Shown: positions 17,189 through 20,614 of the stretch, piece after piece
Layout of the letters: every line of letters begins with the position of its first letter
Position numbering within the stretch: position 1 is the first letter of the stretch
DNA from: an uncultured Pirellulaceae bacterium
GTDB lineage: Bacteria; Planctomycetota; Planctomycetia; Pirellulales; Pirellulaceae
Reading direction: 5' to 3'
Length of the DNA: 38,102 bases
Assembly (NCBI GenBank): GCA_937928215.1
Contig: CALFWL010000239.1
Span: 1 to 38,102, forward strand
Made by a program: the position numbers and the translations under genes
The notes under the pieces: model-generated
What the model saw: only the letters and a program-made list of their open reading frames with translations
Told to the model about the DNA's origin: nothing
Database searches by the model: none

Positions 17189-18478
17189 TCACTGACGAGC
17201 TGCCACGTTTTCGCGTTGAAGCTCATCCACGATTTTCTCAATCTGATCTGCTGGCAACGCATACGTTGCCGCTCGACCGTTGCGGGCAATGTTCAACCCA
17301 ACCGCATTGCCATCCAGATCAAGAATGAGGCCGCCGCAATGCTCTGGAAAAATCGGCATGTCGTGTTGAAAGACGTTGGGGAATCCTGAATGTCTTCGGC
17401 TAGGAACGGCCCCAAGCCGATTCATCATCTTGAACCGAGCTGCACGTTCTCCGTTGATCAGGTTTCCTGCCAGCGTGGCGGTCGTTTCGTTCGGGATGTC
17501 GTCACGAAGAAACTTGATCGCGATCTGGTCGCCAGGTTCGTGTTGGCGAATTTGAAAAACCAAATCACTTGTTTCTTGAATTGGTTCTTCGTCCAGTTCG
17601 GTGATGATATCGCCATTTTTCAAACCTGCTGCAAACGATGCGGTTCCCGGACGCACATCTGAGATCCTCACGCCGCCGATTGTCGTTTCGGGTTTGACTC
17701 CGAGGAACGCCTGTTCGCCAATTTTTGTCGATCGTGGCGTCACGCTGTAGTTCCCGATTGCGATCACGTTTCCATTCTGATCTGGAGCCATCAAAAACTG
17801 CCCAAGCGACAGCCGCGAAGGATGCCATTGAACCGGCGTCAACTCACGCGCGTTGATTTCAAGCAAAGCGACATCGTGAACCTTGTTTGATCGGCGGATC
17901 TGCGCAGGCACTTTCCTCCCGTCAGGCAACAGACATGTGATCCGTTTTCGGGTCGCGACTTCGCTATTTTTGGTGACAATCAAGCCATTGGCGGTAACGA
18001 TCGTCCCCATCGCCACGTGGCGGTTGCCATCGTAGATTCGAACGATGCTTGCAGATGCAGGCAATGCAACGGACTTCAGTTGCTTGATGAGTGAACGATG
18101 TTGCTTTTCAAACTTCGCCTTGGGCCGAGAGCGAAGGCTGGGCAGCTCAAATTTCAACGCGATGTTTCCGGCTCCGTCGGAGGCATCAATTTCATCGAGC
18201 CCTTCGAAGGGATTGAAAGGATTGTCTCGGAATTCACGAAACTGATCGGGCGTCATCTCGACGACGGCAGTGTCCTTGTCCAAGGCTTTGCGAAATGGCT
18301 TCTGCAAGCCCGGTTCCAGATTATCCAGCATGCTCTCGAACACGTCCCGCACCTCGGTGGGGATTTCACCGTTGGATTCTTGAACCGAGAAGCCTGTCAG
18401 CACGGCAACGACGAAAATGTAAATTGTTCGCGTCACGGCGAATCCAGTAAGACGTTTTGTATAAGCCATATCTGTCAT
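17189..18478 (-). CDS. Inactive HtrA-like protein with PDZ inserted in protease domain
   Basis: 429 residues (ATG at 18478, or 18469 for M4), signal peptide within 1-38. Residues about 140-245 resemble the first barrel of HtrA proteases: VAMGTIVTANGLIVTKNSEV, where the catalytic His (usually in TNAHV) is replaced (Asn171-Ser172). It keeps the Asp block HDVALLEI (Asp202) and GNVIAIGNYSV. A PDZ domain follows at about 256-335 (FLGVKPETTIGGVRISDV, PGTASFAAGLKNGDIITELD). Only after the PDZ comes the serine-loop equivalent EHCGGLILDLDGNAVGLNIA, with Cys381 in place of Ser. The usual order has PDZ after the serine loop. Probably a non-catalytic binding protein; a Cys-type enzyme is possible but lacks His. 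It follows the active protease gene after 39 bases. Confidence 0.85.
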   Translation of the reverse strand: MTDMAYTKRLTGFAVTRTIYIFVVAVLTGFSVQESNGEIPTEVRDVFESMLDNLEPGLQKPFRKALDKDTAVVEMTPDQFREFRDNPFNPFEGLDEIDASDGAGNIALKFELPSLRSRPKAKFEKQHRSLIKQLKSVALPASASIVRIYDGNRHVAMGTIVTANGLIVTKNSEVATRKRITCLLPDGRKVPAQIRRSNKVHDVALLEINARELTPVQWHPSRLSLGQFLMAPDQNGNVIAIGNYSVTPRSTKIGEQAFLGVKPETTIGGVRISDVRPGTASFAAGLKNGDIITELDEEPIQETSDLVFQIRQHEPGDQIAIKFLRDDIPNETTATLAGNLINGERAARFKMMNRLGAVPSRRHSGFPNVFQHDMPIFPEHCGGLILDLDGNAVGLNIARNGRAATYALPADQIEKIVDELQRENVAARQ

Positions 18479-18517: not shown

Positions 18518-19540
18518 CTATTGCAGCTGAATTTCCAGCTCCATCATCGTTTCGCCTCGCCGGACTTTAATCGGCACGACGTCCCCCAAGTGAAAGCGCT
18601 TCACGACCTCAATCAAATGAGCACCGTCGTTAATGATGACGTTGTCAAATTGAACAACAACATCGCCAGCAACCAGACCAACCTCGTCCGCCGCTGATCC
18701 TCCCGTCACCTTGCGAATCTTAGCATTCGGAGCCTCACGATCTACGTTGACGCCCATTCGACCCGGACGAGTCTTGTCCCCCGGCTCATTCAGTTCAGGT
18801 AGTTTTCCCCACGAGTCACCTCGTTTCATGCGATCCCAATCGCGGCGAAAAATGGAAAGTGGCACGTGCCGGTTGTCGGCCGTAATGTCGCCGATTGAGG
18901 TATGGATGGCAATCAACTGGCCGTCTAAATTGAATAGCGGTCCACCCGAGTCGCCCCCGATAAGAATCGCGTCCGTCACAATCGTGTTTGGTTTCTTGCG
19001 GAGGATACGGCCGACTCGAACGGGTGGTTTTCGTCCCAGTTCGAATCCTCCCGAATGCCCCAGCGTGATCACCCAGTCGCCCAGCTTGGTACGATCGGTT
19101 TCGCTCATTTCGACATGAGGCCAAGGCCCCGCTCCAATCAATTGGAGCATTCCCGCATCGACATTCAGGTTCTTTCCGAGTGGTTTGGCGGGCACGGTGC
19201 GACCGCTTGGGAAAATCACTTCGTATTTTCCATCGGTTGAAGAACTCATTACGTGACCAGCGGTCAACACCAGTCCATCTTCGTTTACAACGACACCGCT
19301 GCCGAAACCGATTCCATCTGAAATCGCCACGCAAGCGGGCAGCGTCATTGTTACCGCCTTGCCGACTTTTTGCTGAACGTCTTTCAGTTGTCCAACCGCT
19401 TCGGTTTGAGCGATCGTCGGAGCGACAGCCACCAGCGACAACGCAATCAGGACAAACGGCGTCAGCAGATGTGAACCAACCGTCTTCAACGTCTGGCTAC
19501 CGGCAATATCGCGAAACCATGGTTTCCTCAATGGCATCAT
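18518..19540 (-). CDS. HtrA-like serine protease with C-terminal PDZ
   Basis: 340 residues from the ATG at 19540 (an upstream start at 19618 would add 26 residues that do not look like a signal peptide). A signal or anchor segment lies at 25-43 (LLTPFVLIALSLVAVAP). The trypsin-like S1C domain holds the full triad: His96 in VLTAGHV, Asp128 in NVDAGML and Ser198 in IGGDSGGPLFNLDG. The PDZ domain spans 260-338 (RMGVNVDREAPNAKIRKV, GSAADEVGLVAGDVVVQFDN). Such proteases cut misfolded or signalling proteins in the periplasm, with PDZ selecting substrate. The single PDZ makes it DegS/HtrA-like rather than DegP-like in layout. It is the first gene of a pair with the non-catalytic paralogue at 17189-18478. 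Confidence 0.92.
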   Translation of the reverse strand: MMPLRKPWFRDIAGSQTLKTVGSHLLTPFVLIALSLVAVAPTIAQTEAVGQLKDVQQKVGKAVTMTLPACVAISDGIGFGSGVVVNEDGLVLTAGHVMSSSTDGKYEVIFPSGRTVPAKPLGKNLNVDAGMLQLIGAGPWPHVEMSETDRTKLGDWVITLGHSGGFELGRKPPVRVGRILRKKPNTIVTDAILIGGDSGGPLFNLDGQLIAIHTSIGDITADNRHVPLSIFRRDWDRMKRGDSWGKLPELNEPGDKTRPGRMGVNVDREAPNAKIRKVTGGSAADEVGLVAGDVVVQFDNVIINDGAHLIEVVKRFHLGDVVPIKVRRGETMMELEIQLQ

Positions 19541-19765
19541 GAAAGTCCTGCAACTGATTGGTTCTGAAGAGTGGCTGATCGTGCCTAACATCTTGGTCGG
19601 CGGCTCCAATTCAGGCAAGACGGATGCTCAAGCGACTTACACCCACGGTCTACGGATCTCGCAAAAACAGTGTTTTCATCATGCTGGCAAATTGCTATCG
19701 TTCGCCGTTTTTCGGGAGCCTTCGTGGTTCGCGATAACTCCACAGCTTCCGCACACCGGTTTTCA

Positions 19766-20614
19766 GTGAATTCGAGCCACCCAAGCTTGCGACTCAGTTT
19801 CATCGCATTGTGCCTGATTGGCGCTATCGGTTGTGCACGGTTATCGGGTTCGCGATCCGCCGAACTGCCCGACCGACGCAAGGTGACTCGGGACAGTCTG
19901 GTCTTCCACACCAATTTTTACTTCCCGCGCCGGCATCGATTGATCGAAGAATTGCTGGCCAAACGATCGAACATTAAATCGATACTTGGATTGACTCCTT
20001 CTGACGAAACCATTCACATTTTCTTGTTTCAGGACCAGCAGAAATTTCGTCGGTTCCTGACAGAGCAACATCCTTCGTTTCCCGATCGGCGAGCGTTCTT
20101 TCTTCGGTCTTCAACTAACCTGATGGTTTACGCACATTGGAATGCTCGTGTGGCCGAAGATCTACGACATGAAGTGACTCACGCGTATCTTCACAGCGTG
20201 GTTCCAGAAGTGCCTTTGTGGTTGGACGAAGGGATCGCCGAGTATTTTGAGGTTCCCACGTCTGAACGAGGGCTCAATCGAGATCATCTGGATTACTTGG
20301 TCGCGGAAAACGAATCCGGACGATGGCAGCCCGATCTCGAACGTTTGGAATCACTACGGCAGGCTGGTGAAATGAGTCAGTTGGATTACGCCGAGTCGTG
20401 GTTGTGGATTCATTTTCTGGTCCACCGTAACGAAAAAACGCTCGGCCTGTTGCAAAGCTACCTGCAGCAGACGCAGTATGATCGCGTTAACAACAACTTG
20501 AAAATGTGGCCGCAGTTGGAGAAGTTTGACGCTGACGCACCTTCGAATCTGATCGGATACATGAAATCGCTGTCCACTTCCACCAAACTGGCTTCAATCA
20601 AAACGTCACAATAG
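19766..20614 (+). CDS. Gluzincin-type (peptidase MA-like) lipoprotein
   Basis: 282 residues from GTG at 19766; the frame stays open to another GTG at 19670, but the later start gives a neat lipoprotein signal (RLSFIALCLIGAIGC, lipid-attachment Cys near residue 23). The catalytic-type motif is HEVTHAYLH, an HExxH zinc site. It is followed by LWLDEGIAEYFE, whose Glu would be the third zinc ligand; this arrangement is the gluzincin/peptidase MA-like pattern, also seen in DUF1570-type planctomycete proteins. The C-terminal half is helical (LDYAESWLWIHFLVH, LGLLQSYLQQ). Likely a membrane-tethered periplasmic metalloprotease; substrate unknown. It is divergent from the HtrA-like gene, with 225 bases between start codons, and may share control with it. 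Confidence 0.85.
   Translation: MNSSHPSLRLSFIALCLIGAIGCARLSGSRSAELPDRRKVTRDSLVFHTNFYFPRRHRLIEELLAKRSNIKSILGLTPSDETIHIFLFQDQQKFRRFLTEQHPSFPDRRAFFLRSSTNLMVYAHWNARVAEDLRHEVTHAYLHSVVPEVPLWLDEGIAEYFEVPTSERGLNRDHLDYLVAENESGRWQPDLERLESLRQAGEMSQLDYAESWLWIHFLVHRNEKTLGLLQSYLQQTQYDRVNNNLKMWPQLEKFDADAPSNLIGYMKSLSTSTKLASIKTSQ

Follow-up and report, generated by a model that had tools for sequence, protein, structure and literature searches.

Introduction

Allostery in HtrA proteases, in which a signal runs from the PDZ domain through loop L3 to the LD loop of a neighbouring subunit and on to the active site, is well studied and hard to dissect, since each subunit contains all of the parts. In DegS, the liganded PDZ domain is described as signalling through L3 to LD′ of the neighbour and from there to the active site; DegP has a comparable activation cluster, which includes Thr176, Ser183, Arg187 and Gln200 (PMC11642142). 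The R302A substitution in L3 of human HtrA1 is reported to leave no catalytic activity (PMC5666011). PDZ domains inserted in a protease are already known from the C-terminal processing proteases (Prc/Tsp, CtpA/B; PMC6686036), and dead HtrA homologues are known from MamO. A survey of PDZ proteins reports many of them in planctomycetes, and its available text makes no mention of a nested domain order (PMC6411480).

Here, we analysed two adjoining genes, P0001 and P0002, in a 38,102-nucleotide stretch of DNA from an uncultured Pirellulaceae bacterium (the window). The original prediction proposed that P0001 is an HtrA paralogue with a PDZ domain between the two barrels of its protease domain and a ruined, Cys-containing active site; the upstream gene P0002, natural fusions of the two protein types and their complementary loop changes were absent from it. 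Among the publications listed by our literature searches, none described a dead HtrA that carries a PDZ domain in L3 and is matched to an active partner.

Results

P0001 carries a PDZ domain inside an HtrA-like protease domain

The P0001 open reading frame, on the minus strand at window positions 17189–18478, encodes 429 residues, and its frame, strand and coordinates were confirmed exactly. By eye, the N-terminus holds a hydrophobic stretch resembling a Sec signal, and the protein is probably exported. Same-genus orthologues share a motif like EFTPxQFxRFRxxPxNPFEGL in the region of residues 38–120 (window 18119–18367); a similar motif was seen by eye in the linkers of some fusion proteins.

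Pfam matched Trypsin_2 to residues 157–249, covering only profile positions 2–94 of 144, and PDZ_2 to residues 258–334 (E = 1.4e-14), with no match C-terminal to PDZ_2; the rest of the protease domain lies C-terminal to the PDZ domain. A phmmer search of the PDB aligned residues 157–242 with residues 66–151 of DegQ (3stj), residues 362–399 with residues 168–205 (7.8 bits, weak alone), and PDZ residues 269–337 with residues 264–332. In a profile of the nested family, positions 37–139 aligned with residues 95–200 of a DegP-like chain (22kg), positions 251–306 with residues 202–262, and the PDZ domain with residues 267–385. The two protease segments are contiguous in the chain, so that neighbours in HtrA lie 112 profile positions apart in the nested family, with the PDZ domain between them.

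All 60 best profile matches from the PDB were HtrA/Deg chains, and the protease matches of P0001 were to trypsin/HtrA models and chains; S41 did not appear among the families listed. No family model specific to the nested proteins came from the Pfam and NCBIfam scans, which recognised just HtrA/trypsin and PDZ pieces. Pfam, the PDB profile matches and the predicted strand order described below all point to a protease domain homologous to that of DegP, in which the PDZ domain does not follow a complete protease domain. On these alignments, P0001 is an HtrA homologue with a PDZ domain inside its protease domain and a dead active site.

The nested PDZ domain is predicted to lie in loop L3

We modelled P0001 with AlphaFold2 (AF2) from an alignment of 81 sequences (mean pLDDT 85.5, pTM 0.77). 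In blocks of ten residues, pLDDT was 89–98 across residues 121–250, 79 at 251–260, 86–97 at 261–340, 76–77 at 341–360 and 91–98 at 361–420. Barrel 1 comprises six strands in residues 145–208 (window 17855–18046, minus strand, as are all segments of P0001), with Ser172 replacing the catalytic His and Asp202 kept. The first two strands of barrel 2, modelled at residues 228–232 and 238–249, fall within a segment (residues 226–249; 17732–17803) that by profile alignment ends at relay-type Ser245 and Arg249, in L3. The PDZ domain follows at residues 258–335 (17474–17707) as delimited by PDZ_2, AF2 and the conserved Gly260, or at 261–335 in the AF2 model itself; Gly260 is conserved in 99 of 100 nested proteins, and the domain retains an F-L-G-V sequence that we take to be the ligand-loop motif. 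The chain returns to barrel 2 through a linker (residues 343–365; 17384–17452) with a helix at 343–356, in which Ser360 and Arg362 are conserved in 91 and 94 of 100 nested proteins and which is mostly gap in partner rows. The remaining segment (residues 366–427; 17198–17383), containing a QHD motif, Cys381 and NIAR..R, forms the last four strands (369–409) and a C-terminal helix.

This order of two strands, PDZ domain, helix and four strands places the PDZ domain inside barrel 2, after strand 2. In the model, the nested domain sits between strands 2 and 3 of barrel 2, at loop L3, rather than between the two barrels as had been proposed; the nesting itself is borne out by Pfam, phmmer, the family profile and AF2, and recurs in 155 proteins. 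The catalytic serine of DegS is Ser201. According to the available text of the structural reports, L3 spans residues 176–189 in DegS (PMC11642142) and residues 241–251 in Deg5, in which the catalytic Ser is residue 266 (PMC3640471). In P0001 the insert starts after residue 249 and extends to about residue 366, 15 residues before the Ser position, which identifies the interrupted loop as L3 of HtrA.

A Foldseek search with the P0001 model listed 50 matches, which were HtrA/Deg proteins with query TM-scores of just 0.20–0.26, low values that we attribute to the insert defeating a linear aligner. We also modelled a natural fusion (L088, 640 residues modelled) from a 21-row alignment that included seven fusions (pTM 0.64). 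Its second half repeats the strand and PDZ order of P0001, and the stretch between the halves (residues 299–341) scored below 50; given this low-confidence linker and the pTM, the model is silent on how the halves pack. In an alignment combining fusions with single-gene rows, pseudoprotease rows were seemingly set on the active half, and this alignment was unused for modelling.

The catalytic residues are lost and the old active site is remodelled

By alignment, P0001 carries Ser172 at the catalytic-His position (within TKNS; codon at window 17963–17965, minus strand), Asp202 at the Asp position and Cys381 at the catalytic-Ser position (codon at 17336–17338, minus strand). These residues agree with the original reading of a ruined site, in which the His block lacks His, Asp is kept and Cys stands for Ser. 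We assessed conservation in 100 distinct nested domains whose retrieval did not depend on Cys, none of which has the His or the Ser of the triad: position 172 is Ser in 97 and never His, and position 381 is Cys in 86, Met in 5, Ile in 3, Val in 3, and Gln, Thr and Leu in one each. Being present in only 86, and never replaced by Ser, Cys is not a defining feature of the nested family; of the two features whose conservation the original prediction wished to see checked, the PDZ position recurs in 155 proteins, a set chosen for the split order, and the cysteine is replaced by six other residues in 14 of 100. The oxyanion-hole Gly two residues before the Ser position occurs in one of 100 nested domains versus all 94 partner rows, and is Glu379 in P0001.

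More constant than the cysteine in the 100 nested domains are Lys170 (99), Ser172 (97), Asp202 (100) and His372 (93), together with Asp373 (99), Arg399 (97) and Arg402 (97). The letters of Lys170, Ser172, His372 and Arg399 each appear in none of the 94 partner rows, and that of Arg402 in one. Lys170 and Asp202 could form a salt bridge.

The nested family has one origin

The split protease domain was recovered in 155 distinct proteins, for 55 of which the sole source is loci retrieved by a pattern that includes the Cys; the 80 loci retrieved in this way were for this reason left out of the residue counts. In a genome-by-genome search of Planctomycetota and Verrucomicrobiota, a nested match was present in 72 of 392 genomes of the former (threshold 1e-20) and 16 of 194 of the latter (threshold 1e-25). 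The best 80 of 186 confirmed relatives carry titles of Planctomycetota or Verrucomicrobiota groups, Kiritimatiellia, or just ‘bacterium’. Within the genus, 25 of the 27 other genomes have an open, full-length orthologue of P0001, with at least 42% identity over nearly the full length.

We built a tree of 105 sequences with the PDZ domain cut out (55 nested, 40 of the partner set and 10 HtrAs from the bacterium's own genome), using a quick search with no bootstrap. All 55 nested sequences fall on one side of one branch (SH-aLRT 99), and 38 partners group together (94), adjoined on long branches by two divergent own-genome sequences (L197, L201); of the 99 inner branches, 50 are open, and the tree has several long rows. 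This topology indicates that the nested form has one origin. The uniform PDZ position is not an independent test, since the nested set was chosen for the split order. The original prediction had named simple tandem domain order or an error as the alternative, to be recognised by homologues of normal order; in the tree, normal-order HtrA homologues lie outside the nested clade. The row nearest that clade (support 84) is L005, a normal-order HtrA homologue of the own genome (contig C5, open reading frame 613–1818) whose catalytic positions hold Phe, Lys and Tyr, possibly a separate pseudoprotease.

We measured dN/dS in three close pairs of other genus members; P0001 compared with its nearest relative is saturated at silent sites. 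In two pairs the nested protein gave about 0.05 (0.024/0.45 and 0.018/0.34) and the active partner about 0.11 and 0.14. The third pair, which differs by few changes, gave about 0.21 for the nested protein and 0.17 for the partner. The single clade, the recurrence across genomes of both phyla and the low dN/dS in two of three pairs argue that P0001 is not a decaying gene.

An intact HtrA is paired with, or fused to, the nested protein

Directly upstream of P0001 on the same strand lies P0002 (window 18518–19618, minus strand), an HtrA with the protease domain followed by a PDZ domain and with a shortened L3; by eye, its true start codon is probably downstream of the listed TTG. Its His122, Asp154, Gly222 and Ser224, the triad and oxyanion Gly of an active HtrA, are invariant among 25 sequences, and by these residues P0002 is catalytically intact. 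The partner set initially held 95 rows (His in 93, Asp in 93, Ser in 93). Two own-genome HtrA-like sequences that are not pair partners (L005, L007) were removed and P0002 was added, giving 94 rows, in which P0002 counts twice, being present as locus copy L001 as well; Asp is present in 93, Ser in 93 and Gly in 94.

The own genome contains 18 Trypsin_2 places, three of them nested and each adjoining a partner-type HtrA. The further active/nested pairs are L002 on contig C114, whose nested protein has, by eye, a long, charged, helical-looking C-terminal tail, and L003/L006 on contig C236. Of the 155 distinct nested proteins, a partner-type HtrA lies upstream of 111 and is fused to another 35, leaving nine with neither, where ‘partner type’ denotes a profile match, with not all triads read. 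The upstream count includes 106 on the same strand and five with a split match (L003, L080, L097, L103, L183); the fused count includes 33 scored automatically and two assigned by inspection (L037 and L072; L120, a copy of L037, had been scored as fused). Three partnerless proteins start at a contig edge (L085, L091, L117) and one has 890 bases upstream (L093). The other five (L071, L084, L145, L147, L148) have no HtrA in the adjoining DNA examined and no nearby contig edge to account for this; the genomes of L145, L147 and L148 carry a P0002-like gene elsewhere (8e-45 to 2e-41).

The active half is N-terminal in the fusions scored, the sole order that the script sought. The active half has no profile-recognised PDZ domain in 12 of the 33, which suggests that the nested PDZ domain may serve the active half. 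More elaborate arrangements were also seen. Three proteins of 962–972 residues (L149, L150 and L151, family f44) seemingly have a tandem PDZ pair nested between the barrel-2 halves and further PDZ domains between the active and dead halves, and two others (L167, 837 residues; L177, 881 residues) have three HtrA-like protease domains, two of partner type and one nested pseudoprotease.

At a cut-off of 1e-52, picked after seeing the scores (the next genome scores 2.1e-51, and 133 of 392 match at 1e-45), the partner profile matches 66 of 392 Planctomycetota genomes. All 66 also have a nested protein, they make up 66 of the 72 nested genomes, and none of the 320 others matches. Fusions count as both types, the best four to six candidates per genome were scored, and one true fusion (G105, 8.5e-48) misses the cut-off; the co-occurrence is strong but not blind evidence for a link between the two types.

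A conserved third gene was considered and rejected: just the pair is present in all 26 orthologous loci compared, other gene clusters reaching at most 18 of 26, and the three neighbours sampled were a gene without a Pfam match, a UvrC-like gene and a thioredoxin/TPR gene. At window positions 19670–20614, on the plus strand, lies a divergent neighbour with weak DUF1570 and peptidase MA matches, matched in one of the 26 loci.

Loops and relay residues are complementary in the two proteins

As a measure of L3 we took the distance between residue 242, the second Gly of barrel 2, and the Ser position; for the LD hairpin we took the distance between residue 226, the first Gly, and residue 242. L3 spacing in nested proteins has a median of 139 (range 128–260, n = 100); in partner rows it is 21 in 69 of 94 (range 21–31), and in six own-genome canonical HtrAs 29–34, four of the ten being unreadable by the pattern. 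The LD hairpin is 16 in 80 of 100 nested proteins and 23 in 91 of 94 partner rows; five own-genome canonical HtrAs give 19, 19, 19, 21 and 23 (four read by eye), so the partner value is at the long end of the canonical range of 19–23, not outside it. These spacings indicate that the partner has shed most of L3 and has an LD at the long end, and that in the pseudoprotease LD is short and L3 greatly enlarged.

Relay residues equivalent to DegP Ser183, Arg187 and Gln200 were located by spacing, using the known distances of the DegP cluster residues from Ser210. P0001 has all three, as Ser245, Arg249 and Gln371. Among the 100 nested proteins, 52 have three, 19 two, 21 one and eight none, a moderate conservation when taken singly (Ser 73, Arg 67, Gln 75). 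In the partner rows (n = 93, one row skipped) the corresponding numbers are 0, 1, 33 and 59, and five of the six own-genome canonical HtrAs read have all three. In partners, the second strand of barrel 2 opens with Gly-Arg (P0002 residues 203–204; window 19007–19012), the Arg being present in 79 of 94 rows versus five of 100 nested proteins; it is possibly a replacement relay residue.

Discussion

We propose that P0001 and P0002 form a two-subunit HtrA of the cell envelope, with P0001 as sensor and P0002 as cutter, a tentative reading to which we give slightly less than an even chance. P0002, with its His, Asp, Ser and oxyanion Gly and nearly no L3, would be the cutting subunit, and P0001, with a PDZ domain spliced into L3, a non-cutting sensor; the two would assemble into mixed oligomers. 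A peptide or an unfolded C-terminus bound to the PDZ domain of P0001 would move its L3, and this movement would order LD of P0002 and switch its active site on. In a DegS-type trimer the PDZ domain and L3 of each subunit act on LD of the next; here P0001 would retain the part that sends (PDZ in L3) and P0002 the part that receives (LD and active site). The proposal is built on computed features, namely the nested order, catalytic loss, one origin, pairing, fusion, co-occurrence, the loops and a partial relay; that the two proteins bind each other, which way the signal runs and what the ligand is are inferred. Several findings count against it: split partners retain their own C-terminal PDZ domain, the relay is moderately kept, nine of 155 nested proteins are partnerless and the partner LD lies within the canonical range.

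The sensor model also leaves unexplained the Lys/Ser/Asp/His/Arg/Arg set at the old active site, which is more conserved than the relay residues and suggests a separate task for this region, such as ligand binding or holding the partner. In a fuller version, catalysis and allosteric sensing would be divided between two co-inherited proteins, with the site of Lys170, Ser172, Asp202, His372, Arg399 and Arg402 serving as a second input; we regard this as possible but doubtful.

The same residues bear on another explanation, that P0001 is a repurposed pseudoprotease resembling MamO, whose dead site binds a metal, an anion or a peptide end and which perhaps helps its partner only indirectly. MamO offers a precedent, as a degenerate, metal-binding HtrA described as needed for MamE-dependent proteolysis (PMC4794232), and the six residues, kept in 93–100 of 100 nested domains and so above the relay residues, match at the five positions besides Asp202 in 0, 0, 0, 0 and 1 of 94 partner rows. 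This reading, which we consider unlikely, leaves the PDZ domain in L3 and the partner's loss of L3 unaccounted for, and the ligand it assigns to P0001 is only putative.

P0001 might instead be a scaffold, adaptor or chaperone that hands substrates to P0002 through its PDZ domain, with no allostery. Pairing and fusion would suit any tethered adaptor, the PDZ match and Gly260 are kept, and fusions without a recognised first PDZ domain could capture substrates through the nested one. An adaptor, however, needs neither a PDZ domain inside L3 nor a partner that has lost L3 and relay residues, and we rate it marginally below the MamO-like role in likelihood.

A dead subunit can poison an oligomer, and P0001 could in this way be an inhibitory decoy that keeps P0002 off until displaced. 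Contacts of the unliganded PDZ domain of DegS with L3 and the protease domain are reported to be inhibitory (PMC11642142). Single-chain fusions (35 of 155) nevertheless suit a permanent subunit better, and none of the neighbouring genes accompanies the pair at all 26 orthologous loci compared; we consider a decoy quite improbable.

New catalysis at the old site, through Cys381 or a Ser/Lys arrangement, could draw on the Cys at the nucleophile position in 86 of 100 and the nearly invariant Lys170 and Ser172, and we hold it very improbable, given that 14 of 100 have another residue than Cys at position 381 (Met, Ile, Val, Leu, Thr or Gln) and that the oxyanion Gly is kept in one of 100 versus 94 of 94 partner rows; the variation at position 381 excludes a Cys protease as the main reading. 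The loss of catalytic residues, and nothing else, would fit an assembly artefact, frameshift or decaying pseudogene, a negligible prospect against open orthologues in 25 of 27 genomes, a single clade and low dN/dS in two of three pairs.

If the division into sensor and cutter is correct, sender and receiver would be different proteins, and the steps of HtrA allostery could be tested separately. It would also suggest a design rule for switchable proteases and assign a role to a family conserved in Planctomycetota and Verrucomicrobiota.

Among known systems, the C-terminal processing proteases, which form family S41, share with P0001 an embedded PDZ domain and differ in being an active enzyme of another protease family, made of a single protein; P0001 matches no S41 model among the families listed. 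Like the HtrA/Deg proteases (S1C: DegP, DegQ, DegS, HtrA1–3), P0001 has a chymotrypsin-like domain, a PDZ domain, the triad Asp and L3 relay residues, but unlike them it lacks the triad His and Ser and the oxyanion Gly, carries its PDZ domain in barrel 2, has a short LD and comes with a matched second protein. Plant Deg5 and Deg8 are likewise a pair of HtrA proteins that act synergistically, and one of the two lacks a PDZ domain; unlike P0001 and P0002, in the available text both have catalytic triads, their structures were solved separately and neither has a nested PDZ domain (PMC3640471). MamO has Thr at the Ser position, where P0001 has Cys381, and a C-terminal TauE domain that promotes MamE, which Pfam does not find in P0001, and the available part of the MamO report does not mention a nested PDZ domain (PMC4794232). 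As judged by its degenerate triad and its HtrA partner, active by sequence, P0001 nonetheless resembles MamO, a dead HtrA homologue without which the proteolysis carried out by MamE, an active HtrA of the same gene island, does not proceed (PMC4794232).
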